DNA from: Thoreauomyces humboldtii
Taxonomy: Eukaryota > Chytridiomycota > Chytridiomycetes > Spizellomycetales > Powellomycetaceae
DNA length: 18,657 bases
Direction of reading: 5' to 3'
NCBI GenBank assembly: GCA_027596035.1
Contig: JADGJA010000440.1
Coordinates: 1 to 18,657 of the forward strand
Position numbers and translations under genes: made by a program. The notes under the pieces were generated by a model. It searched no databases. It was not told the DNA's origin and saw only the letters and a list, made by a program, of their open reading frames with translations. Shown piece after piece: positions 1-18,657 of the stretch (positions within the stretch are counted from its first letter, which is position 1; each line of letters starts with the position of its first letter).

Positions 1-110
1 GCGTAAACGCGGGTGGAATGGGATGTTCTGTGAACTTTCGTGATGGATAGGGATCTGATTTCGCCCGAGCCAACAAAAACAGGTTGACGAGGAATATCAA
101 GCGAGTGATC

Positions 111-140
111 TGGGCTGCGGGGCGATGGGCTGCGGGGCGA
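111..140. repeat. 15-bp perfect tandem duplication (2 copies)
   Basis: The unit TGGGCTGCGGGGCGA occurs at 111-125 and again, without any mismatch or spacer, at 126-140. It is G-rich and lies in non-coding sequence. It is probably a simple slippage duplication; no function is implied. Confidence 0.9.
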
Positions 141-353
141 AAGAGCGCTGGCGGATCCCTGCTGACTCACGACTGAATGCTGGATGAGAGGAGGAGAGGG
201 TGAGGATCCTTTCTGAGCCCTCCGTGGATCGGAAGAGGGAATTATGGGAAAGAGCGAACGGATCGGGAAAATCCTTCTGAAGGAAACGTTCTCGAATGCA
301 TCCGGGCCCCCCTTTCTCTTTTCATTTCGTTTCTGGCTGTACATGTTACGTTC

Positions 354-935
354 CTAAGTGGGTTCCAAGCTGGTGGGGGAGTTCTCATCCCTCCGTCCCG
401 CGACCGCCCCTGCCATGATACCGGTATGTGTGACGAGTCTGAGGGCTCTGAGGGGGTTGCTGCTGCTGTCCGATCCTTCTTGTCGTTGACGCGGATGCAT
501 CATTAGGTCAGCACTCCGCTCCGACGGGACACCCTTGGACAGCACGAACACGTAGCTAACCAGGACACTAAAGGTGAGACCAAGGACCTCAACAGCTGCG
601 GACATGGAGAGGTGCGGGGCAAGGTCCAGGATCCTGGAGTCTACAGGCTCGCCGTTGTCAAGGCATGCCCCCCTCCCCGGACATCCGAAAATCCCTTTTG
701 ACTGTCTCACGTATGAATTGCTGCCTCTTGATCCCGCGGCGTTCGACGAAAGCCTCCCTCCCCCCCTTTCCCTCTCCCCTTTCCCTCCGCTAACGATGAT
801 GGAATACCGTGCTCGTTCCGCAGGTTGTTGCAGCTGTTCTATTTCGTTCGTACTGGGTCCCTGGAACTCTACTGGAAACTGAATTCTCGGAAGAGGCTTT
901 CTCCATCCTTGCCATTCCGCATGTTCGGTAGCCAT
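354..935 (-). CDS. Weak candidate ORF, 193 aa, unknown
   Basis: This is an uninterrupted minus-strand ORF of 193 codons. Its ATG at 935-933 sits in a strong eukaryotic start context (ACCATGG), and the gene would be divergent from the kinase-PDE gene. Residues 107-131 are hydrophobic (run AAVEVLGLTFSVLVSYVFVL) and could be one membrane segment. Residues 40-70 are Gly/Arg/Glu-rich and look like translated purine-rich non-coding DNA. The plus strand carries a 102-codon ORF over the same bases. I recognise no family. It may be a real small membrane protein, perhaps spliced, or chance. Confidence 0.2.
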   Translation of the reverse strand: MATEHAEWQGWRKPLPRIQFPVEFQGPSTNEIEQLQQPAERARYSIIVSGGKGERERGGGRLSSNAAGSRGSNSYVRQSKGIFGCPGRGACLDNGEPVDSRILDLAPHLSMSAAVEVLGLTFSVLVSYVFVLSKGVPSERSADLMMHPRQRQEGSDSSSNPLRALRLVTHTGIMAGAVAGRRDENSPTSLEPT

Positions 936-1734
936 GGTAATAAACTCCCGATGGTGCCAGCTTGAATTCTTGGTAAAAGGGTGTGACTTTGGTACGCAGA
1001 GTGTCGCGCGCGCGTGTTGACGCCACTAGTCCCCGACCGGGTGTGTGTTGTCTCCCCGCCTGCCCAACCCGTTGCTGACGAGGGTGCTTGGTGAGAGAGA
1101 GGCCAGGCTCCCCACCCAGATGGTACACCGCCCGTCCCGTGGCCCCGCTCCCAAACACGCATATCCTCTCCTCAATCCTCAGAACTTCGTCCTCTCCCGT
1201 CCTTACTCAATCCGCGGCGTCCCATCGTGCGAGAGGAAAACCTTGCCGTCTCTTACCTGACCCACATTCACGAACAAGACCAGCCGTCAGGGTGCCTCCC
1301 CCTGTCACGCCCCAGTCCTCCCCCTTCTGACCTCGGTTGGTCGGTCATCCCCAGAGAGTCGGAGTCTCTACCCTTCCGGCGCTTGACCTCTGCATCCCAC
1401 CGTCTTTTACTTTTCGTCACCAAGGAAAGTCAACAGGGAATCGGGTCGGCGCTATTCTCTTTTCGCATGCATGCGTCACTGAGACGGTCTACAGTACACT
1501 CCTCTCGGTTTTGCCCTGACCCGTCGTCGCGGACCGTGTAGTCGAAAACCAAAAACTTTGAAACTCCCGTGCGGATCAGTTCAACAGCAAAAAGGAAGAG
1601 CTGTCCTGGTAGTTTTTTTACGACTCCCTTCACACACACCTCCCGCGGCGGGATAAACTGCCCGGCTCACCACCCGTAAAACGACTGAACCCATCCATCC
1701 CTCCACGGAGGTTCTTCTGCGTCGGCTTTCCAAC

Positions 1735-4700
1735 ATGCCGCTGAGCGTGGCACCCATAAAAGTCCCGGGTCTGACCGACCTGAAGGTGATCCACTACAAC
1801 CACAGGTCGTCGCTCATGATCCAACGAGGTCATCGAGTGGACCATCCGGAGGAGACGGTCGTGTGCAAGGCGAACGCCTTTTTCGACGAGGACGAGAACC
1901 TGAAGCTGAAGCACGAGTTCGAGCTGTTGAACCTCATACATGTGACGTTGAACGACATCGTGGCGACCAGGAAGCAGGGCGCTTCGACGACGGGTGCCTC
2001 CGTCGACAGCAAGTCGGGGTCGGGCGGTTCGACAACCACCGGCGGAGGCGGAAAGGTGGTGGGAGCTGCTGCGAGGACGAGCAATCCTCCCCTTCCTTCC
2101 GTGTCCGAAGAGTCAACTTCTCCTAGCTCGCCCGTCACGACTCCGCCTCTGCCGATCCCTGAGATGGAGACCTCGCCTCCAAAAACTCAGAATCGGACAG
2201 ACAGCGGCAACGGCAGCGGTAGCAACACCATCACCACCAGCACCACCAGCATCACTCCAAAACCGTCGCAGGGTAGACCATCCCGTCGACCGCGGAGCAC
2301 CAGTCTCTCGCACGACTCGATCCAGGGGTCACTGACGGATCGCATCATCCGTCCCCTCAGCCTAGAGGACTTCAACGGTCAGTTCATACTGATACTCGAG
2401 GACTACGGAGCGTTGTCACTACGCGAGTTCGCCATCGGAACACCGAAACGATCCAGTCCCGTCGTCTCTCCGACTTCCATCTCCACTTCTCCAGAACCCC
2501 TGGCGCCGGTCAAAGCGGTCTCCACGGCGCTCGTCGGCGGTTCCGATCTCGGGACCGGCATCGGCGGCAGCGTGGCGGGAACGAGCGACTCGCCCGTCGT
2601 CGTCGCACCACCCGCTCCCGGAACTCCCGAAAAGACTCCGCGAAAAGGAACCCGTCAACTCCCGCTGGAAGAGTTCCTCCACATCGCGACCCAGCTCGCG
2701 GAAGCGCTCGAGATCGTGCATGCGGCTCAGGTGATGCACAAGGACATCAACCCTGACAACATCGTGATCAAGAGGTTGGCCAACAACCAGGTCGGTGTCC
2801 AACTCATCGATTTCAACCTCGCCGAGGTCACCGACATGGGGAGTCAGGGTCAGAGGAACTATCTGGAGGGAACCCTCGCGTATCTCTCTCCGGAGCAGAC
2901 GGGTAGGATGCAGAGGGTCGTCGATTATCGGACAGGTGAGGAGAAAGCGCGAGTGGAAAGCGTGACGAGTGAAACGATGGAGGTCTGATGTGGGGTTTGC
3001 GTGCGTCCTTTTAGATTTTTACAGTCTCGGCTTGACGCTGTGGGAAGTGATCGTCGGCAGCCCTCCTTTTCAGTTCGACGATGCAACCGTAAGCTTTTGA
3101 TGGCGCTTGTTAAATTTTGTTCTACGTTTCCGGTTATTGATGGTTGTTGATACGTAGGAGTATGTCCACGCTCACCTAGCGAAAGAAGTCGAGCCCGCCA
3201 CAGCCTTTGACCCATTGATACCCAAAGCATTCTCGGACATTATCGCGAAGGTAGGGATATCCAGCGTGGGAAATATCAACAACCAAAAAGCGGAAGAGCT
3301 CATTTTCCTTACAGCTAGCAAGCAAAGCACCGGAGGATCGATACCAATCCGCCTCCGGACTTCGCTACGATCTAATGCAATGCATCAACCGTCTCCAACG
3401 GGCACGATCCGAACGTCACCTCCCCATCGCCACCCGTCTCTCCGACGCCGAGGTCGCTGCTGCCTTCGCTTCCTTCGATTTGCGACTCGGAGCTCGAGAT
3501 CATTCCCACCACATCAGCATCCCAGATCGATTGTACGGGAGGGAGAGTGAGACCCAGGAGCTCACGACCGCATATCAGAACATCGCGTCCGGGAAGAGCA
3601 GGTCCGAGCTTTGCTTGGTTTGTGGGAGCAGCGGGGAGGGAAAGAGTTCTCTTATCAATCATTTGAGAAAACACGTCATGGGAAATCGGGGATTCTTCGG
3701 TGAGTGTTTGATTTCTGTCGTTATGAAATCCGTCGGTCTGTTGTCGTGAGTGGTTCCTAAGATTAGCTGAAACCTCTATCTGCTTGGGTTTTTCTAGTGC
3801 ACGGAGCTTACACTCAGTACAACCGGGATCGACCATACGGCGGTCTGGTGCAAGCACTCGACATGCTGATACGACAGCTTCTAGGGGAACCTGTCAACGT
3901 GTTGGACAAGTGGCAGAACCTGCTCACCACTGCACTAGGTCCCGCGTACCTTTCCATCGTCACGGATGTGTTGCCCGACCTCGAGATGATCGTCGGTGCT
4001 CAGCCGGCTCTGGATGCTGCTCGTGTGGACGCCACGAGCGCCGAGCAGAACACGTTCATCAGGGCCATGCAGGCTCTCATCGGATGTTTCGCCAAAGCGG
4101 ATCATCCTTTGGTGGTCTTCTTGGACGATCTGCAGGTATAGTATCTTGTTCTACAAATATTAGGGCAACCCACAAAAAATAAAAATCTCACGTTTCCTTA
4201 CAGTACGCCGAGCCCGCATCGCAAAAACTGCTACAAACCATCCTCTTCGACAAAAAGATTGCACACCTCCTCATCGTAGCAACACAACCACACAGCGGAG
4301 GCCCCTTATCTAGCGCATACGGACCAACGGTGCAACGGATCCAGTTCGAAGCGCCACAACGTCTACGTCGGATCGAACTCGGTCCCCTTCCTCCAACCGG
4401 TCTACGAGAGATGCTCGCGGACACTCTCAAGCCCGCAACAGAGGAGCTCGACGCTCTCGCATCGCTGCTGTACAGGAAGACGATGGGAAACCCTTTCCAC
4501 ATCCGCGAGTTCCTCCGCTACGCGGAGCAGCACACATTGATCTACTTCGACGACGTTGCGGGTGGATGGGCGTGGGATCTCCACGAGTTGGACAGACAGA
4601 CGGTGTTGAGTGAGAGCGTGGCGGAGTTGCTCTTGACGAGGTTGAGACAGTTTCCGCCAGAAACGCAGACGCTGTTACAGCAGGCTGGTGAGCGGAGGGT

Positions 4701-7700
4701 TTGTTTCGCTCGCCATCTGTCCAAGAACGCGTTGCTGAAAGCCCTTCCTGGTTTCGTTCCTTTGTGCAGCATGCATAGGCGATTCATTCGACCTCCGGTT
4801 ACTGGCCTTTGTGGCCGACTCGAGCATCGTGCAAGTCGCGACGCATCTTTGGGCGGCAGTAAAGGAGGGATTTCTGCTTCCTCAGTCCAACGACGTCACG
4901 CTTTTCCGAACTCCGTCGGCGTTGTCGAGAAGTTCGTCTGGATCGGTTGGTTCACACACGGGCCGACATGGACACCGTTCCTCTTTGTCGTTGAGCACAC
5001 GATCGATGGGTGGGATGGTTCTTTCGTACAAGGTAGGAAGTTGCGCCATCTTCGTGTGGAGGAGTGGAGTACTTACACTTCCGTCCCCGGCTGCAGTTCT
5101 GTCACTCGCGTCTCCATCAATCATGTTACGAGATGATCGACTCGGAAGCTCGCCAAAAGCTTCATCTACAAATCGCCCGTCTCCTCCGTCGCAATGTGGC
5201 CGAAGAAGAAATCCACGAACACCTCTTCGGTCTCGTGCTTCAATACAACAAAGCTCTCCCACTGCTAAGCGACCCAGAAGAACTTACTTACGTAGCACAA
5301 CTGAACTACGACGCCGCTCTCCGTGTCAAACGATCCGGTACCCACAGCGCAGCGAGAAGGATGCTCGACACAGCACTATCCCTGATCACCTTCGGTCCGG
5401 AGACCGAGGAGACGGCTTGGAAGACGCACTATCGACTGCTGTTCAACATCAAGAAATCTCTGGCCCAGGTCTGCATCGTCGACAACGCTTACGATAAGGC
5501 GACGGCGATCCTTCGGGACATGGCGAAACGTGCGACGTGCGTGCAGGATCAGTTGGTCGCTACCAGCATCTTGGTGGGATCGTATCATGTTCAGGGTCAG
5601 TTCAAGGATATCTTGGAGATGGGGTTGAAAGAGCTTCAGCATTTCAACATCCCCGCGCCCGACAACGAGCAACATGCCATCGAGATGGTCAAGAAGGAGT
5701 TCAAGACTTTGGAAGGCATCCTTGGAGATCGGACTGTCGAGGAGTTCTCGAAGGGGAATTTCGTCGGGGAACCCGTCACGGAGATGTTGGAGACCGTGCT
5801 TGTTTTCATCGGCGGCGCCGCCGGATCTCTTGGACAGTTCTACCAGGCTCAGTACTTCTATCTAAAGGTACGGCAGCTTTCCTTCATGAGCAGAGCGCGC
5901 CATGCGAGGTTTCTTGCTGACACGTAATGGATTCCTTCAGGGTTGTGTTTTAGCCTGTCAGAACGGGCTTGGTTCCCAGAGTGCTGTCCTCTTCGCCAAT
6001 GTCCTTCGGACCTACACATCGACTCCCGATGGCCCCTTCTTCGACCGGATGCGATGGATCTGCAAGCTCGTGTTCACTCTCCTCGCGAAAACTCCCTACG
6101 AGATGTCAGCGCGTGCTCGTCTCGGACTCCTTCTCAACGGCTACGTGTATGTTGCCACGTTTAAAGAGTTCGAAGACAACGCGGAAAAGTGCATCATGGC
6201 GGGAATGGAATCAGCCCACTACTCTGTCCTCACGTACGCCATGTGCGCCTGGCCTGGGATTCTTCTCTCCTTTGGTCGACCCGTGGCGCTGTGGCGGGAG
6301 TGGGAGGCAAGACATCAGCCGTTCATGGAGCAGTTCAAGGGATACTTTCTCAACGTATGGAGAGGCACCATGGCGGAACTGGAGGCCATTGCTTCTGGGA
6401 CCGAATGCGTGTTCCAGAACAGGGACGTCATGGCTACCGGAATGAGCAGGGCGCAGGTGTACTACTATCGGTTGGTAAACGCGATGGTTTACAACAGGGA
6501 GGACAAGAGGGCTTTGCTCGAGCAGTACAAGCTGGATGATGCTATGAATGCGTATATCGGTCTGCCGAGGTAACAGGGATTTTGAGCTTCCTTGATTCGA
6601 GTCGGTGGCGAATTCTTACATCTTTGCCAGATTCGTCGACGTGTTCGTATATCAAGCGTTGATCGCTGCATCCGAATTCCATCTGCCCGGCTACGATCAG
6701 GAACGACTACTGGCCGAGGTCGATTCCGCCTATGACCGGATAGCTGTTTTTGCCGAGCAGTCGAACGAGATCCACTGCAAACTATACCTCGTGTCCGCGG
6801 AAAGGGTTAGTACAAAGACGGCGCAAAATAACCACCGTGCTTTATGCTCACCCTGCGGTCTCCCACATGACTTCAGGAGCGGATAAAAGGCAACGCAGAA
6901 GCCGCACGTCAAGACTACGAAAAAGCGTTGGATCTCGCACACGAGCACGGATTCCGATTCCAGGAAGCCGTCACCATGGAACTGTACGGAAAGTACTGGC
7001 TCGACCTGGGATCCAAGCGACTTGCGAAGACGTGTCTCCAGGATGCATACGCGCTCTGGGGATCTTGGGGATCGGAAGGAAAGTGTAGACAGCTTCAGAC
7101 CATCTACGCTGGCGTGGTGGACCTGTTCGTTCCGTTAAAGGGCATGTCGACTTCCAGGTTCAACCATAGTAACGGTGGTACCAACTCCGGACGGTCCAAT
7201 GGGACGGAACAGCAGGACAATTCCATCGATCTGGATCTCACCACCGTTCTGAAAGCTACCCAGTCCATCAGTAACGAGACGAGTCTGGAGATACTGCTCA
7301 CGAAGATCATCAAGTTTGTGATGGAGAACGCGGGTGCAGAGAAGGGTCTCCTCGTCCTTCAGCAGGACGGAAAGCTGTTGATCGAGGCTCTCGGCATCAT
7401 CGTGGAAGGGGAAGAGCACCACCAGGTCCTTCAACAGACTCCCATCGAGGAAGCGACGCCAGAGAACGGTGGACCCCTCTCCATCATCTACTACGTTTAC
7501 CGGACCCGAGAACCTCTGGTCCTCACCGAAGCCGTCCAGGACGAGACATACGGGAAGGACCCATACATTTCGAAGCGACGCACCAAATCCACCCTGTGCT
7601 GTCCCATCATGCATCAGAACACGGTCACCGGAGTCGTGTACCTCGAGAACGATCTTCAGAGCGGTGCCTTCACAGGAGACAGGCTGGAACTCATTCAATC

Positions 7701-10273
7701 CCTCATGGCTGCCGCATCCATGTCCATCGAGAACGCGAAACTGAGCAAGACCAACACGGAGCTGACGGCCGCCCTCAAGGATTCGAGCACGAAGACGGGT
7801 CCACGATACAACCTCGACGGTCCGATAAAGAAGACGATCGACATGCTCCAGAGCTTCAAGTTCAGACTTCCACCGGGTGATCCAGGGATCAAGCAGATCG
7901 ACTTCATCATGCGAGCGTTGACGTCCACGGACCTCTTCTCGTCCAACATCGATGAGATAAACGACGAGACCGGTAAAGGTCTCGACTCGGACACCAAGAA
8001 CTGGATCGAGAACTCTCTCCTTCAAAGAGAATCTCGACCGAGTCGGGGACGTCTTGATTCGAAGGACCTCATGTTCGGTGCCGCTCAGCAGCTCAGCGCC
8101 GCGGGGACGATGACACCCACGAAACCCGTCCTTCGTCCCTTGCAGGAGATTCCGCTGCTGAACATGGTTCGCGTGAACGCTCTCTTGAAGCAATCCACGA
8201 CGTTGGATTTCAACATCTACGATCTTGCGGAAGCGACAAACGGAAGACCTTTGTACTTCCTTGGTGTCCACCTCCTGGAACACTGGGGTCTACTGCAGCA
8301 TTTCTCGCTGGATGAAACCAAACTCAGGACATTTTTCGAGCAGATTGAAGCGAGCTACCACCCTCTACCGTACCATAACAGCGTTCACGGTGCGGACGTG
8401 CTGCAGACCGTCAACATGCTGCTCCTCAGCGATCCGAAGATGGCGGCGAATTTCACGAAATTGGAGATCTTCTCGGCGTGCATCGCCAGTGCCGTTCACG
8501 ATGTGGATCATCCTGTAAGTTTTCGTTTTGCTCGTGCTGCTGATGTGTTGCTGCCTTCCGGCGTTGTCTAACACAAGGTCGCTTTTCATCATCACAAGGG
8601 ATTGAACAACAACTTCCTCGTTCAATCCTCCCACCCACTGGCCATTTTCTACAACGACATGTCAGTCCTCGAGTTCCACCACGCTGCCAAGGCGTTCGAG
8701 ATCGCACGAAGACCCGAGACGAACGTGTTCGACAGTCTGACCAACGAGCAGCAACGAGAGTCTCGAAAGCTCATCATCAGCATGGTCGTCGCCACCGGTG
8801 AGCAAAACCATCGCTTGCTCTCAACCATTTCGTTCTGTCCTTACATTTTCTTCTCTTCATTGTTTCGTTTCGTAAAGACATGTCGCAGCATTTCCACTAC
8901 ATCAACAAGCTGAAGGGAAAGATCGCAGCTTCCGCTCTCAACTGGGAGGAGTCGAACGACAGGTCGTTGATCCTCGAATGTGCGATAAAGTGCGCCGATC
9001 TCAACAATTCGGCGAAACCGTTGGACCAGTCAAGAAGGTGGGCGTTCCAGGTCATGCAGGAGTTCTTCCTTCAGGTAAAACATCTAGGCACCCGACTCAA
9101 CCACTCCCACCTGTCGTCAACTCTCAACTTTGCTGCATCTGTCGCGACCTGCGGGAGGAGATTACAATCTGACCCTGATTCTTTGGTTGTTCATAGGGTG
9201 ATCGAGAACGCAAGCTCGGAATGCCGGTATCCAAATTCATGGACCGCTACGACACGCACATTCCCAAATGTCAGATCGGGTTCATCGACATCCTCGTGAC
9301 GCCCCTGTTCGACTCCTGGAGTCAATGCATTCAAACCCCGTTCTCGCGTCAATGCGTGGACATGATCGCGCAAAACCGTCGCCACTGGGAGTCCATCCTG
9401 GACAAACCCGACGCCGTGCCCGTGTTCCCAGCCCCAGCCGAGGACGAAAGGGAGGATTTTCAGATCACCGCTCCTTCGACGCCGCCGTTCACGCCGGGGT
9501 CCGGGTCGAGGGGCACGCCTCCGATCGGGGAGGAGAGCGATCCGTTCGCGAGCCGGTCGGCGTTGTTGGTGGGATCGTTGACAATCGCGGGGGGTGTCGC
9601 CGGGAAGAGATCCGGGTTGGGGGGTGGTAGTGGGAATGGGACCACGACTACTGCCAATGCAACTTCGACGGGGGAAGGATCGATCGGAGTCGGGGCGGGG
9701 GGTACGGGTCGTCGGATGAGTTCACCCCACGTGTTGTCCTCCATGCCGAGACATCACGTACACGGTGCGAGACCGCCGGGTGATCTCGTCAAGGCCAAGG
9801 TGCTGCAGAAGAGCGCGTCGGGTGGAAGCATGCAGCAATGGACCAGTCGGGATCCGAACTCCACCATCACGGGCGTCACTGCGATCGGTAATCCCGGTGG
9901 AGGACAGATACCTCATCCACCCCTCACGTCCTGGGATCGCTCTTACACGACGACGTCGGATGTTCCGTCCGGTCGAGACTCTGCGAGTGCTCGTCGACGC
10001 TCCATCGCCACGACGACTCCCAGCGAAAGCGTGGGAGGCGGTAGTGGTGGACAGCCGATCCCCAGCAAAGGACCACGGGAAGGGACGGGTCCCGGGACTG
10101 CTTTAGGGGGTGGGAAGCTACTCCTACCATCTCTGTCGTCCGTCCCTCGAAGTTCGGTCACAGAGGACAGCGCATCGAACGAAGGATCACCGGCGCTCGT
10201 CAGATCGAGACAACCGTCGGTCACGAGACCGGCTTCGTCGGCAGCGAATCGACCCACCGGTTTGGCCACCTAG
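1735..10273 (+). CDS. Ser/Thr kinase-like / STAND ATPase / TPR-like / GAF / class I cyclic-nucleotide phosphodiesterase fusion
   Basis: Exons: 1735-2935, 3015-3088, 3158-3250, 3315-3699, 3798-4135, 4204-4687, 4770-5032, 5097-5867, 5941-6569, 6631-6805, 6877-8514, 8599-8797, 8878-9074, 9197-10273. They total 7524 nt, or 2507 residues, with every phase matching. Domains in order: kinase-like 1-475 (K45, catalytic loop HKDINPDN 335-342, DFN 359-361, SPEQTGR 385-391) with low-complexity inserts at about 75-205 and 235-305; AAA_16/STAND ATPase about 520-860 (Walker A GSSGEGKS 560-567, Walker B LVVFLDDLQ 689-697); helical TPR-like region about 860-1500; GAF about 1595-1760; linker helices about 1780-1860; PDE about 1910-2190 (HNSVH 1971-1975, HDVDHP 2012-2017, D2124, Q2175); Ser/Gly/Pro-rich tail to 2507. 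The family front end normally feeds a histidine kinase; none is present. The likely reaction is cAMP and/or cGMP to the 5'-nucleotide. No signal peptide or membrane segment is visible, so it is probably cytosolic. The start is the first in-frame ATG after a TAA at 1654. Nucleotide specificity and kinase activity are not known. Confidence 0.9.
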
Positions 10274-11716: not shown

Positions 11717-13661
11717 CTTGGAATCTTCCAGACCGCCACGTCTTCGGACAGGCAACGAAACGCGATCAATGCTACGATAACATCAAGGTGATCTTTCGTC
11801 TTAGCGGGTTGCAAGCGATGTGCCCCGCAACTTTATACTCACGCGGTTGATATTCAGGTCTCTCGCAACGCCTGGGATACCAACCTGGTCAAAGCGAACC
11901 CTCTGTACATTTCCATCAACATCGAGGCCAGCGGAGGTATGATGACATGCTCGCCAGCGGCATCTTGGTTATACCGCCATGGTGACCGTGTTCTTTGCGA
12001 TCCATTTCGCTCTTATTCAGGCGGAGCTTTTGCTGTCATCGCACACAACAACACCGGGAAGCTTGCGGACAACCTCCCTGTCTTCAATGGTCACACTGCT
12101 GCCGTTTTGGACACGGACTTCCACCCTTTCATGGATAACATTGTCGCGTCCGCATCCGAGGACACTACGGTCAAGATCTGGACCATTCCCGAAGGTGGAC
12201 TGACCGAGTCCATCTCCACCGCTTCGCTCACTTTGAATGGTCATGGACGAAAGGTAAAGCCTCACTCGTGCCTGCCCTCACCGGAACGTACTTGTGCTAA
12301 ACAGCGTTGCGCGATGACTAGGTCGGTCACGCACTTTTCCATCCTTCGGCCGATAACGTCCTGGCTACTGCCAGCGCCGATTTCACTGTCAAGCTATGGG
12401 ACATCTGCGCTGGAAAGGAAAGGGTAGAGCTCACGGGCCACACCGAGATCATCCAGTCGCTGGCCTGGAACTACGACGGCACCCTGCTCGCAACGACGTG
12501 CAAAGACAAGAAGCTTCGCGTCTTCGACGTTCGCGCAAACAAAGTGGTTCAGGTGCGTGCCGAGGCATATAACTTTCTTGTCATTTCCATCCTTTTTCCG
12601 TCGCTTATTCTTGGGTACCAAAGGAAACGAACGGGCATCAAGGCATCAAAGGTGCTCGCGTTGCTTGGATGGGCAACGCGGATCGATTCGTCACTACCGG
12701 CTTCAGCCGCACGAGCGACCGCCAAGTTAACGTCTACGATTCGAAGAACCTCGAGACCCCACTGAAGTCGGAGACGATCGACACTGCCTCGGGGTACGGC
12801 TAGACAACGGTGCCACCATGCATTCTTTGGCATCGTGACTGAAACATCCATCCTCGTCTTAGGATGCTCATGCCCCACTTTGACGCCGACACTAGCATGT
12901 TGTACTTGGCGGGCAAGGTAAGCTGGTCTAGGACCATCTCACGGAACACGACCAAAAGACTTGCTTAATTGCTTTTGTGCTGCTCGTAGGGCGACGGAAA
13001 CATCCGCTATTACGAATGGGTGGATGATGAGAAGGGTCTGTACTTTTTGTCGGAGCACAAGTCCGCCGAGCCTCAGCGTGGCATCAGCTTCCTTCCGAAG
13101 CGTGCTTTGAACATCGCCGAGACTGAGATTGCCCGCGCGTACAAGGTCCACCCGACGCTCGTCGAACCCATCCCTTTCAAGGTGCCACGCAAGGTAAAAG
13201 ATTCGTGCGGCGCCTTGCCGAACCATGCTTACATAAGCAGCTAAAGAATGTTTGTCTGCTTCTCTGTAGTCTGACTTGTTCCAGGCGGACTTGTACCCAG
13301 ACTGCATTGGCGGAGAACCCGCACTTGATTCAGCCGACTTTTTCAACGGCAAGAGCGCACCACCGAAGCTGATTAGCCTGGAGACAGGCTTCACGGCTCC
13401 TCCCACTCGGGAGTTCGTCACGGCAGCCGTTGTGGCCGATGCCACCACGGAAAAGGCTCCTCAGACGGAGAAGGAGGTAATGCTGATCTTTACCAAGTGC
13501 TTCCCAAACTTCGGGCTTAAACCGGAATTTCGCTTGGACAGTACCAAGACGCGTACCACACGCTCCGAAAAGAGAATGACGATCTCAAGAACCAGGTTTC
13601 CAACCGGGACGCTCGGATACGTCAGCTGGAGGCGCAGGTCGAAGGGGCCAGCAAGAAGTAG
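11531..13661 (+). CDS. crn1: Coronin (WD40 actin-binding protein)
   Basis: Coronins bind F-actin, regulate the Arp2/3 complex and act at cortical actin patches. Exons: 11531-11558, 11732-11787, 11858-11936, 12021-12253, 12322-12552, 12624-12793, 12863-12917, 12990-13193, 13270-13476, 13542-13661, giving 460 residues with all phases consistent. The N terminus has the coronin signature (MSRFVRASKYRHVFG, then EASGGGAFAVI at 51-61). WD40 units are clear at 78-108, 128-158 and 171-208, with more divergent blades to about 350. The coronin-type C-terminal extension carries RALNIAETEIARAYKV and is followed by a short variable stretch. Residues 422-460 form a coiled coil with RIRQLE (446-451), which fits the coronin trimerisation motif R-h-x-x-h-E. 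K28 aligns with the actin-binding R30 of animal coronin 1B. It is a short form, lacking the long acidic, microtubule-binding insert of budding yeast Crn1. Intron 1 (173 nt) is the longest in the window. Confidence 0.95.
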
Positions 13662-13846
13662 AGGGACAGTATTGGAGAGGCAGGTCACGAGAGCTGGCTC
13701 GCTGCGCTCTGGGGGCACCGTTCGCAGATAGCAGCTTGAGGACTGAGGGACTGAGGGACAACACAAGACCCATCGTTGAAAATTGATTCAGCTGACTTGG
13801 CAAGTTTTTTTGGTCATCAGGTCATATCAGGGTTCATTTTCATTGT
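13662..13846. other. Convergent 3' intergenic gap (coronin / ABC transporter)
   Basis: These 185 bases separate the coronin stop (+) from the transporter stop (-) and must hold both 3' UTRs. A T8 run lies at about 13805-13812. No canonical AATAAA is evident on either strand. The transcripts may overlap tail to tail. Confidence 0.6.
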
Positions 13847-16800
13847 TCATCCGGTGCTAGCGTACAGCTGCGAAAAGAGAGACATCGGGTCTTTTTGAAG
13901 GTCCGATGGGGCACCGTCTTCGACAACGCTTCCATCCTTCATGCACAGGATGCGATCCATGGCAATCAACCCCTCCGTGCGGTGGCAGATGGTGAGCACC
14001 GTGCAGCTAGCAAACGCCACATCCACGGCGAGGGTGACTTTGGCGTAGGTCGCAGGGTCGACCGAGGAGCTGGGCTCGTCCATGACGACGATGCGTGCGT
14101 TGTGGATGATGGCTCGTGCTATGCAGATCAGTTGTCTCTCGCCGGCAGAGAAGTTGTCGCCGTTGACGGATACCGGTGCATCCAGTGCGCTTCCAGCCGA
14201 CGTGTCCACGGCCAGTCCGACAATCTTCAAGGCCCGCCACAGCGCTTCGTCGTCGTGCTCGCCTTTCGGATCCAGATTACTCCGTAATGTGCCGGCAAAA
14301 AGGACAGGGACCTGCGGAATGACGGTCATTTTGGACCGTAAAGATGCAAGGCTGAGCGACGAGATGTTGACCGAGTCGATAAAGATTCCAACGTTGTTGA
14401 TCTCGGGGCCGTGTGACGCCTCGCTGCATTTTTCGTCTTCTGTGCCTGGTTTGCAGAGTTCTGCAAGGCGGAGCAGAGCAATCGCCAATGAACTCTTGCC
14501 GGCACCTGTTCGGCCGACTGAGGCAGATAAAAAAGGAATGTCAGACGTCAAAGCTGCAAGGACGTGGGATCGCCGAGCACTAACCGATGGCGACCTTGCT
14601 CCCACCGGGAATATCGAAGGATACATTTCTCAAAGCCAAATCGAGCCCGCTGCGATAGCGCATGTTGACATTTCTGAATTCGACGGCGCCCAGCCGCGGC
14701 CAATCCTCTGGCGCATCCTGACCCTTGGCAACGTCTTCGGGTGGCAGGTCAATATACTCGACAAGTCGCTCAAAGTAAACCATTTGCAAGCTGAGCATCG
14801 CGAAGTAGGAGATTAGTTCTGCGATGTCTTGCGTGGCACCCGTGGCGTAGCTCAGGGCAAGGCCAACCCTTGCCGCGTTCAGCGAGCCCGCGAAGTGGAC
14901 CGAAAGCGCGGTAATAGCGAAGACGACGACGCTACCGACAGACTGAATGCACATGGTAAACCACTGACTGCCGATCAGGGACAGATAAGTGGCAGCCTGC
15001 TCCGCATCGATCATTTTTCGGTTGTTGTCGATGGCGACGGCCTCGCGCTTGAACGCATGGATCGTCGAAATGCCGTCCAAGGTCTCTGACAAATTGTTGC
15101 AGACCGGCGATCGCAACGCAGCTCCGAGGCGCTTCAAGACTCTTTGGGAAGCCAGATAAAAACGGCCGTACATGCTGAATAACAGGGCTAGGTGCAGGAT
15201 AAGACGGAATGTTAGGAACTTGACGAGGAGCAAAGACAACCACCGCAGCTAAAGCGCTTTACCGACGGGTATCATCACGACAAGAATGACAGGAGTGTTG
15301 ACTATGCTCGGAATCAAACTAGCCACCAGTCCAACAAACAAGTTGAAAGTGGACATGTAGATTGGGGGCAGAGCCATATCAGTCATATGCACGTCGTCGG
15401 TAAACCGGTTGGCGATGCGGCCTTGCGGAGTCGTGTCGAGCCACGACATTGGCTGACGCAACACAGAGTTCGCCAGCTCCTTATGAACTTGGTCGGACGC
15501 CTTGATCGCACAGACTCCCATCCACGTGTACGCGGGAACGGTGGTCATGAGAGCCCCAGCGAGAGTGAGAGCGACATAGATTCCGAGATAGTAGCCAAGC
15601 GAGTGTGGCAGCGCCGTGCTGTTTTGTTGAGCATTGCCTGAATCTGTGAACCAATGCTCCAACCAGAATCGTGCGGCCAACACGGTTCCAGTCGCAAGAA
15701 GACTCGTACCAACGTAAGCTGCGACTCGGTAAAGGTTTCTGCGGAGGAGCAACACAGAAAGGTCAAAAGACTGTCCGTAACGGAGAAACGGAATAACAAC
15801 TGAGAATAATCTCACGCAAAGACAAGGTATCGCCAGTATACGGACCAGCCCAGGCTTTCCGGTTTGATACGCTCTTCCTTGTCACTCGGCGAGTCGATCC
15901 GGATCTGACCGGGAGGCGCCCCGCTTCGGGGCTTGCTCTTCTTCTTGTCCCCTGGCGATGGGCCTTTCTGGAGGTACATGACTTTGCCGCCGGACGGCGC
16001 CGAAATTTCGTTATCGTCATCCGGTGGGGTCTTTTTGAAGGACATGACCTTGCCTCCTGATGTCTCCGAACCCTCTGATTCGTGCTGCCCATGCTCTGAG
16101 GCAAGGGACTGCTCTTGTGCGAGTTTTGTGGCCGCGCTTTCCAAAGCGGCCATCCGTTCACGGAGAGATCCAGTCTCTGCGATGGGAATCTCGGAGGCCA
16201 TGCCTGCCTCGATCAGGAAGACGCGATCACATCTGGGAACAATGTGCAAGGCGTTGGTGACAAGCACGCGCGTCTTCCCGCTCAGGAGGCCTGCATTGCC
16301 GAAAAGTTTGTCAAAGACTTCCTGGGCGACATGCGCGTCCAGCGCAGAAAGCGGGTCATCGAAGAGATAGATGTCGGCGGACGCGCAGTATGCGGCTCGG
16401 GCCAGACACAGCCTCTGTTTCTGTCCGCCGGACAGGTTGCCGCCACGCGTAGCAACCAGGGCCTGGTCTCCTCCGTCCAGATCGACAAGGTCCTTGGTCA
16501 GGGAACACGCATCCACGACCCGGGCGAAGCGGTCCTCATCGTAAGCCGATCCGAAAAGAATGTTGTCTCGAACGGTTGCATTCTGCAGCCAAGGAGCTTG
16601 AGATGCCAGCGCAAAGGTGCCAATTGCTTCCACTTTCCCCGAGGATGCGTCCATCTGACCGATGATGGCAGCAAGGAGTGCTGATTTTCCTTGCCCGGTC
16701 CTGCCGACAATGGCTGTGAGGCTCCCTGCACTCAGGTTCATATTGATATCGTTGAGGACCATCCGCTCAGACGTCGTCAGCCAGCCAAAGTTTCCGTGAG

Positions 16801-18642
16801 CGATTTGAATCGAGCCTGCTGATTTTCTTTCCGATGGCGCAATCTGACCGGATGTCGCCGGCTCCTGCATTTCGAAAGTATGCTCAGAGTGGATGCTCCC
16901 GTCGTCGCCGCCGCCCCATTGGGCATACGAATCGACGTCACCGTCCTCCCGATCTTGCATGACGAGCAAGTCCCCGATCCTCTCCATTGACGAAAGGCCG
17001 GCCATGAAGAACGAAAGGGCTTGCGAGACATTGCCGAGCGGTGCTCTCAGGAGTTGAAAGGTGGTGAGCGATACGAACACGGTGCTCGACGTAAGAGGAG
17101 GCAGACTGGATACAGCGGCGTGCGTCCCGATCATGAGAACAAAGGCAACCACCGGAAGTCCCGACGAAAGAAGCACCAAGGAAAAGCTTGCGCGGGCGAG
17201 CGACCGTAGGGGAACGAGTTCCTTCACGCGCAGAGCTTCTAACTCCAGACCAGAAGGGTCAGCCTCATCCGCGCTGTCAGCTATGCCAACCTTTTTTTTT
17301 GAGGGCTCTTACCTTGCTCAAAAAGTTGGTTTCCAATCCAAGCATCTTGATGCTCAGCAAACCAGCCAGAATCTCGTTTGTAAGACGTAGGCGGACATCC
17401 ATGGCCTTTCTCTTGGCGAGAAACCACTGTCGTATGTTTTTGGCCAGATGTCCTTGAAGTGGCCCAGAAAGAAGCAGGAGTGCAAACCCGATGAAGGCAG
17501 GCCATGACAACTGCATGTAGAGAATGAGCATGGCGACGATAACCTGCAGGAAAGGTTGCTAGGTCAGCTCGAAAAGCGAGATGATATTCCAGAGGTCAAC
17601 ACGTGCTTTTACCTGTAGCCCTGCGCCGATCAGCATGATCAACCAGTGGTGAAGGGACAACGCTCCTTCGGCGTCCGAAGTCAAGCGGTTCATGATCTCT
17701 CCCACTCCGAACTCGGCTCGCGATGTCGCATTGAGTTGCATGGACTTTCGAAAGATCGCACCGCTTATGCCAGACCGTCTGCAGCATTGAAGATAAGAAA
17801 CGAGGTTCCATTCAAACAGCATCCCGAGGCTAGTCTCGCAGGCTCTGCTTGGAAACTTACGCTTTGAAGCCGATCAAGCGGACCTGTTGTTCCGCCCACA
17901 CCGAGCACAGCGTTCCCAGGGTGGCGACGAACAACATTGCGCCCGCAACCGCAAAGCCCGTGGAACGGAAACTAGGGGCTTGGGGAGACGCGAACTCCTC
18001 CAGTAGAATCTGCAAGAGCAACGGCTGGGCGTATACGAAGGCCGTGTTGGCGATCGTAAGGATGACTGGCGCTACCGTATCCGATGCATATCCAACGAGC
18101 AAGGCTCGCCCGAGCGATGGCGCTGCCCGCTTCTTTTCCTTGTCCCAAGCGGCTTTGAAACGCGGGTAGGTGGCGGTGCCACTCAGAGAGTGACTGACGC
18201 TTCCCAGGTCGGCCTCGGTGAGCGGGCGGCGATGGCCGGTCGAGAACAGCGGCACGATCCACGAGAACAGCAGGCTTCCGAGAGGTCCCGCACGCTCCTC
18301 TGGCGAGAGGCCGGGCATTGTCTCGCACTGCTTGAGCTGCTCTCCGACCAGGCAGATGACGTCCATGACAAGGAGCAAAGGGAAAACGGGGCCAGGCCCG
18401 CCCACGTTGGCAGTTGCGAGGGTTCTGAGGGCGATGGCGTGTCCCGTGCCAGAGATGAACCAGTACAAAGAGATGGCCGTGGCGTAAGGGGAGCATCCGG
18501 AAATGTTCCTGCGTCGGAAGAGGCCGACGGCGAAAAGAATGAAGACGATGGCGACGCCCACAAGTTCAAATATGGCGGAAATGCTCGAGAAATGGTCGAC
18601 GGGCCTGACCAGGAAGGCGATTCTGGAAGCCATGGCTATCAT
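13847..18642 (-). CDS. ABCC-type (MRP/YCF1/YOR1-like) full ABC transporter
   Basis: ABCC pumps use ATP to export organic anions, conjugates or drugs across the plasma or vacuolar membrane. Exons in coding order: 18642-17861, 17778-17613, 17543-17313, 17242-15816, 15738-15263, 15187-14585, 14517-13847; 4356 nt, 1451 residues, phases consistent. About three N-terminal membrane segments (22-42, 52-72, 85-100) precede the elbow LFSWIVPLFSTGHRRPLTEADL (125-146). TMD1 is about 180-500. NBD1 has Walker A GRTGQGKS 573-580, signature LSGGQ 663-667, Walker B DD at 688-689, and Asn723 where the H-loop His is expected. A charged linker spans about 745-855. TMD2 is about 870-1150. NBD2 has Walker A 1230-1237, Q-loop Q1297, signature FSAGE 1351-1355, Walker B DE 1375-1376 and H1407. 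NBD1 Asp-Asp with NBD2 Asp-Glu is the usual ABCC asymmetry. An in-frame TAG lies at 18654-18652. The start is M1 or M4, the latter in a better context (GCCATGG). An upstream exon outside the window cannot be excluded. The substrate is not predictable. Confidence 0.93.
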
Positions 18643-18657
18643 CAGAAGCGTCTACAC

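Follow-up and report, generated by a model that had tools for sequence, protein, structure and literature searches.

The window analysed here, an 18,657-nucleotide stretch of the chytrid fungus Thoreauomyces humboldtii (contig JADGJA010000440.1 of assembly GCA_027596035.1), carries on its plus strand a gene (1735-10273) that very probably encodes a sensor of the type found in cyanobacterial HstK proteins and fungal group X hybrid histidine kinases, rewired to a PDE4/7/8-like class I cyclic-nucleotide phosphodiesterase (PDE) in one multidomain protein. That this is a single protein is indicated by one frame running over 14 exons, with the GAF domain and the entry into the PDE lying in the same exon. 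That it has been rewired is indicated by the kinship of its parts: the front end, from kinase to GAF domain, is homologous to HstK proteins, whereas the linker and PDE are not and instead find their homologue in a second PDE gene of the same genome, on contig C54.

In the gene model, which is predicted from the DNA sequence, splicing of 13 introns yields one frame of 2507 residues without an internal stop, in agreement with an earlier interpretation made from the letters alone (the sequence-only reading), according to which 13 introns join in frame to form one gene. All 13 introns are GT...AG and 61-122 bases in size, and the 14 exons of the complete coding region are predicted at 1735-2935, 3015-3088, 3158-3250, 3315-3699, 3798-4135, 4204-4687, 4770-5032, 5097-5867, 5941-6569, 6631-6805, 6877-8514, 8599-8797, 8878-9074 and 9197-10273. 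The start ATG at 1735 is the earliest in-frame ATG past the upstream stop (the frame is open from 1657), and the stop codon ends at 10273. Exon 11 (6877-8514) contains, uninterrupted, the GAF domain, the junction between the modules, the linker and the first PDE motifs (H1971, H1975, H2012 and D2013). This exon is open over 546 codons; among 200 mononucleotide shuffles of it, the longest open run reached 204. When trained on the remaining exons of the same gene, a codon-usage score is positive in the coding frame in 9/9 scoring windows across it and negative in the other two frames; together, open frame and codon score are more than chance would give. A division of GAF domain and PDE into separate genes was rejected since both lie in the same exon. 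Alternatively, the locus might make two products, with an internal promoter in exon 10/11 or alternative splicing giving rise to a short PDE, in which case the fusion would be mainly a genomic arrangement. Internal promoters are frequent in animal PDE genes, and in the C54 gene the linker and PDE also stand together, behind a different front end. However, with GAF domain, linker and first PDE motifs joined in exon 11 by a steady coding frame, we consider a two-product locus unlikely and favour a single sensor-PDE fusion protein.

A Pfam scan of the protein at curated cut-offs, with weaker families considered to E<=0.1, placed Pkinase, AAA_16, GAF and PDEase_I above cut-off, in this order from N to C terminus. 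The protein-kinase-like domain (residues 15-470; 1777-3356, on the plus strand like all features of this gene) matches Pkinase with 83 bits (cut-off 31.7) over residues 309-470. Pfam detects only this C-lobe, and the N-lobe, at approximately 15-75 and 204-236 (limits from the alignment and by eye), is broken up by low-complexity inserts at approximately 79-203 and 237-306. An AAA_16 (STAND-type) ATPase follows (residues 528-722; 3528-4278; 103.8 bits, cut-off 32.6), with Walker A (GSSGEGKSS) and Walker B (LVVFLDD) motifs recognised by eye, and then a TPR-like helical region (residues 941-1590; 5015-7233). The GAF domain (residues 1608-1755; 7285-7728; 49 bits, cut-off 22.4) is also confident in an AlphaFold2 (AF2) model. 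It precedes the class I PDE (residues 1895-2216; 8146-9397), which matches PDEase_I over residues 1970-2197 with 273.9 bits (cut-off 24.8). A low-complexity Ser/Gly/Thr-rich tail (residues 2231-2507; 9440-10270) closes the protein and matched no Pfam family and, by blastp, 0/79 of the bacterial proteins described below. The sequence-only reading had proposed the order kinase-like, AAA_16, TPR-like, GAF, PDE, together with a domain search to check it. That search, run here, returned all four Pfam families above cut-off; the TPR-like part stands on blastp homology to 79/79 bacterial HstK-like proteins, TPR_12 having scored 17 bits against a cut-off of 30.1, and its label is therefore based on homology and not on a Pfam match above cut-off.

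Relatives of the front end were collected from bacteria as 79 distinct loci, kept from at least 562 confirmed stretches as the best by likeness to the window, so that the output counts below are no census. Judged by record titles, nearly all are cyanobacterial, the clear exceptions being L063 (Myxococcota), L122 (Desulfamplus) and L127 (SAR324). By blastp, the kinase-AAA piece matched all 79 loci with 36-43% identity in the best segment, the TPR-like region matched all 79, the five best rows reaching about 22-24% identity, and the GAF domain matched 77/79, with about 47% identity to cyanobacterial HstK-type GAF domains in the best rows. The window PDE matched none of the 79. Seven of the bacterial open reading frames (ORFs) lie at a contig edge and were omitted from the output and kinase-column counts, leaving 72 complete ORFs, which were scanned for outputs from residue 1441 onwards. 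HATPase_c was found in 58, HisKA in 49, HisKA_3 in 8, SpoIIE in 8 and Guanylate_cyc in 4, while PDEase_I was found in 0/72. Cyanobacterial HstK/cbSTKIII dual kinases share this front end and its domain order, with an N-terminal Pkinase and a GAF domain before the output, but end in HisKA and HATPase, both of which are absent from the window protein. The occurrence of HATPase_c, SpoIIE and Guanylate_cyc behind one front end indicates that output exchange is recurrent in bacteria; going by these comparisons, the new element in the window protein is the PDE output and not output swapping as such, which bacteria already have. The four loci with a cyclase output, apparently L094, L115, L131 and L106, are cyanobacterial and place behind the same front end an enzyme opposite to the window PDE. 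A kinase-GAF-CYCc protein, Tery_2857, is listed in the accessible part of PMC2176072. In the kinase-like domain, D337, N342 and D359 fall in columns conserved in 72/72 bacterial proteins, and the front-end kinase may bind ATP and phosphorylate itself or a partner.

Where these relatives have a histidine-kinase output, the window protein carries the linker and the PDE catalytic unit. Neither HisKA nor HATPase nor a receiver was found in it by Pfam at E<=0.1, and H-box patterns matched nowhere in the protein; the single match of an ATPase G-box pattern, at residue 271, lies inside a low-complexity insert. A hidden HisKA/HATPase pair at residues 1760-1910, which the sequence-only reading had named as a finding that would overturn its proposal, was rejected, as no Pfam match and no H-box pattern was found there. 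Across the 20.7 Mb assembly (823 contigs, among which the window is C380 in our labelling), a HisKA search gave 17 exon-level places and a receiver search 33, none of them on C380 and one of each on contig C268 (HisKA at 14630-14788). The absence of HATPase comes from the Pfam scan of the window protein alone, no genome-wide HATPase search having been made. The earlier statement that no H-box or receiver follows the GAF domain is upheld by the Pfam scan, the patterns and both genome searches.

Pieces of contig C268 match Pkinase, AAA_16, GAF, HisKA, HATPase_c and Response_reg and represent a group X-type hybrid histidine kinase, which also has the front end, part of the TPR-like region included. 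One receiver was identified; two downstream pieces, by eye a second receiver, matched no family. Since all histidine-kinase parts were detected in C268, we take their absence from the window protein as real and not as a failure of the search. In the C268 locus (L058, approximately 18-8812), HKN and GFQ replace the catalytic Asp and DFG motifs of the kinase-like domain, which, in contrast to that of the window protein, is likely to be a pseudokinase. The hybrid histidine kinases of fungal group X, among which we count Chk1 and to which Mak2/3 had been assigned earlier, have the kinase-AAA-GAF front end in common with the window protein, in the order also seen in C268, but end in HisKA, HATPase and a receiver, all three missing here. 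S_Tkc, AAA ATPase and GAF domains are given for Chk1 in the accessible part of PMC9069115. The earlier comparison of the window protein with HstK and group X proteins was right, as the bacterial HstK-like loci and C268 carry the same front end.

In the PDE half, H1975, H2012, D2013, D2124 and the invariant Q2175 stand at the positions given in the sequence-only reading, H1971 and N2127 are present in addition, and the class I PDE signature matches at residue 2012, confirming a complete class I PDE. Among the best 60 of 151 matches to solved structures, the closest relatives are PDE4D (244 bits) and then PDE4B, 4C and 4A (235-233), followed by PDE8A and 7A (214), PDE3 (194) and PDE1 (182); PDE2, 5, 6, 10 and 11 do not occur among these 60. 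As far as these matches tell, the catalytic domain appears to be of the PDE4/7/8 type and not a relative of the GAF-PDEs. It resembles PDE4, PDE7 and PDE8 (214-244 bits) in the catalytic domain alone, as no Pfam domain typical of their N-terminal regions, such as PAS, was detected in the window protein. The GAF-PDEs (PDE2/5/6/10/11) likewise place a class I PDE behind GAF domains and share the generic GAF fold, but they have tandem GAF domains and an NKFDE motif, whereas the window protein has one GAF domain of HstK sequence type. The favoured substrate is probably cyclic AMP (cAMP), to judge from the ranking of relatives and from N2127, which we take to be the position of the PDE4 Asn linked to cAMP selectivity. 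Given that metal-binding residues, catalytic residues, signature and Gln are all intact and that the Pfam score is 273.9 bits, it is distinctly improbable that the PDE is weakly active or inactive and acts as a cyclic-nucleotide-binding regulator of the kinase-like or ATPase part; in favour of such reverse signalling, the kinase C-lobe retains D337, N342 and D359, so that the front could be an output too.

Within the genome, the closest PDE detected is that of the C54 gene, with 47% identity to the window PDE over 303 residues, and this gene also matches the pre-catalytic linker of the window protein (pairwise blastp E 7e-08). It lies at approximately 2328-6482 on the minus strand of its contig (locus L062) and reads as one spliced frame of 1071 residues whose 3' end is provisional, with an ANF_receptor match (55.2 bits), a signal peptide and a membrane helix by eye, and then the linker and a class I PDE. 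A receptor-like PDE of this build mirrors a receptor guanylyl cyclase. On contigs C25, C650 and C372 the genome has more class I PDE matches; upstream of them, five pieces scanned (1, 3 and 1, respectively) gave no Pfam domain above cut-off, and an upstream frame on C650 contains a hydrophobic stretch that by eye may form membrane helices. An assembly chimera of a group X-type gene and a PDE gene, conceivable in a draft of 823 contigs, is highly improbable, as the join lies within one exon, in frame and with a continuous coding score, and as C268 (33% identity) and C54 (47%) are far diverged, so that neither half stems from one of them.

The two modules meet at residues ~1757-1780 (7732-7803), where, within exon 11, HstK homology stops and receptor-PDE homology starts. 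Residues 1766-1890 matched 0/79 bacterial proteins by blastp, and the pre-catalytic linker (residues 1780-1852; 7801-8019) is common to the C54 PDE gene. The AF2 model of residues 1587-1852 (7222-8019) was calculated from 39 bacterial GAF rows that were trimmed at the GAF domain and do not cover the linker (mean per-residue confidence, pLDDT, 84.9; predicted TM-score, pTM, 0.70). The GAF domain is followed in the model by a single long helix (residues 1738-1776, or 152-190 in model numbering; 7675-7791) that runs toward the PDE, and then by linker helices of mixed confidence. GAF-PDEs and histidine kinases usually rely on long helices exiting GAF domains for coupling, which makes control of the PDE through helix 1738-1776 plausible. 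A fold search with the GAF domain returned generic GAF matches, those of PDE2, 5, 6 and 10 included, and does not discriminate between GAF types; nor do the GAF matches among solved structures.

We hypothesise that the STAND/TPR and GAF parts would sense a cytoplasmic cue or partner, that helix 1738-1776, together with the pre-catalytic linker, would relay the state of the GAF domain to the PDE, and that the PDE would then hydrolyse cAMP, so that a group X-type cue would lower cAMP directly, with no phosphorelay in between. RegA of Dictyostelium, a separate receiver-PDE reached via a phosphorelay, likewise ties histidine-kinase-type sensing to a cAMP PDE, but the window protein has no receiver. 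Several observations weigh against the rewired-sensor reading or parts of it. The first 80 residues of the protein, searched alone, matched 0/79 bacterial proteins by blastp. The kinase-like domain has DFN instead of DFG, its glycine loop is not clear by eye, and where the bacterial proteins have their beta3 Lys, the window protein has V43, with a Lys (K45) two positions later. The linker past the helix is partly of low confidence in the AF2 model, and the NKFDE motif is absent from residues 1591-1765. Finally, the case for cAMP consists of the Asn position and the ranking of relatives.

To place the front end in evolution, a tree of kinase-AAA modules was built from 28 sequences, namely 26 of the 79 bacterial loci, the window and C268. 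The window and C268 both form very long branches and are not grouped, and one clade for the two is not rejected (p-AU 0.22). Their front ends share 33% identity, compared with 43% for each against its best match in a bacterial set that was itself chosen by likeness. The gene may have had its output replaced following a duplication, or its front end may have been acquired independently from bacteria. We tentatively suggest a new eukaryotic wiring of histidine-kinase-type sensing to cAMP, in which an HstK/group X front end, perhaps having entered the lineage separately from the group X kinase, was fused to a PDE that bypasses the phosphorelay, as the mirror image of the bacterial cyclase proteins. 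Viral contigs gave pattern matches and no confirmed relative. Within the genome, the contigs with Guanylate_cyc matches and those with the front end do not overlap, and no cyclase was seen there with the front end. The Guanylate_cyc matches number 12 at the exon level, on eight contigs; Dikarya usually have a single adenylyl cyclase, fewer than these matches.

If the proposed wiring is true, a bacterial-type sensor front end has been connected to the eukaryotic cAMP system with a sign opposite to that of the cyanobacterial cyclase version, and a natural PDE-linked copy of the group X sensor half would offer a simple enzymatic read-out of the role of that half. In the accessible parts of the sources, the group X histidine kinases of fungi are tied to development and to the response to oxidants (PMC4965123), and a review gives their stimulus as 'Oxidant stress ?' (PMC6944256). 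The sequence-only reading knew of no described protein with this architecture, and likewise none of this domain order was found in the open-access literature, the accessible parts of PMC5285503 and PMC1262709 included, a search that did not extend to subscription papers or eukaryotic protein databases; chytrid proteomes may therefore already list the architecture.

The same genome has three IFT57 matches on one contig and 36 Chitin_synth_2 matches, which suggests a flagellated, chitin-making, chytrid-like fungus. Downstream of the PDE fusion gene, an ABC transporter gene on the minus strand (13847-18651) runs toward the contig end and matches ABC_tran twice and ABC_membrane once; its last piece (17857-18651) matched no Pfam family. 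Between the two, on the plus strand at 11795-13731, lies a coronin-like gene with DUF1899, WD40 and WD40_4 matches.

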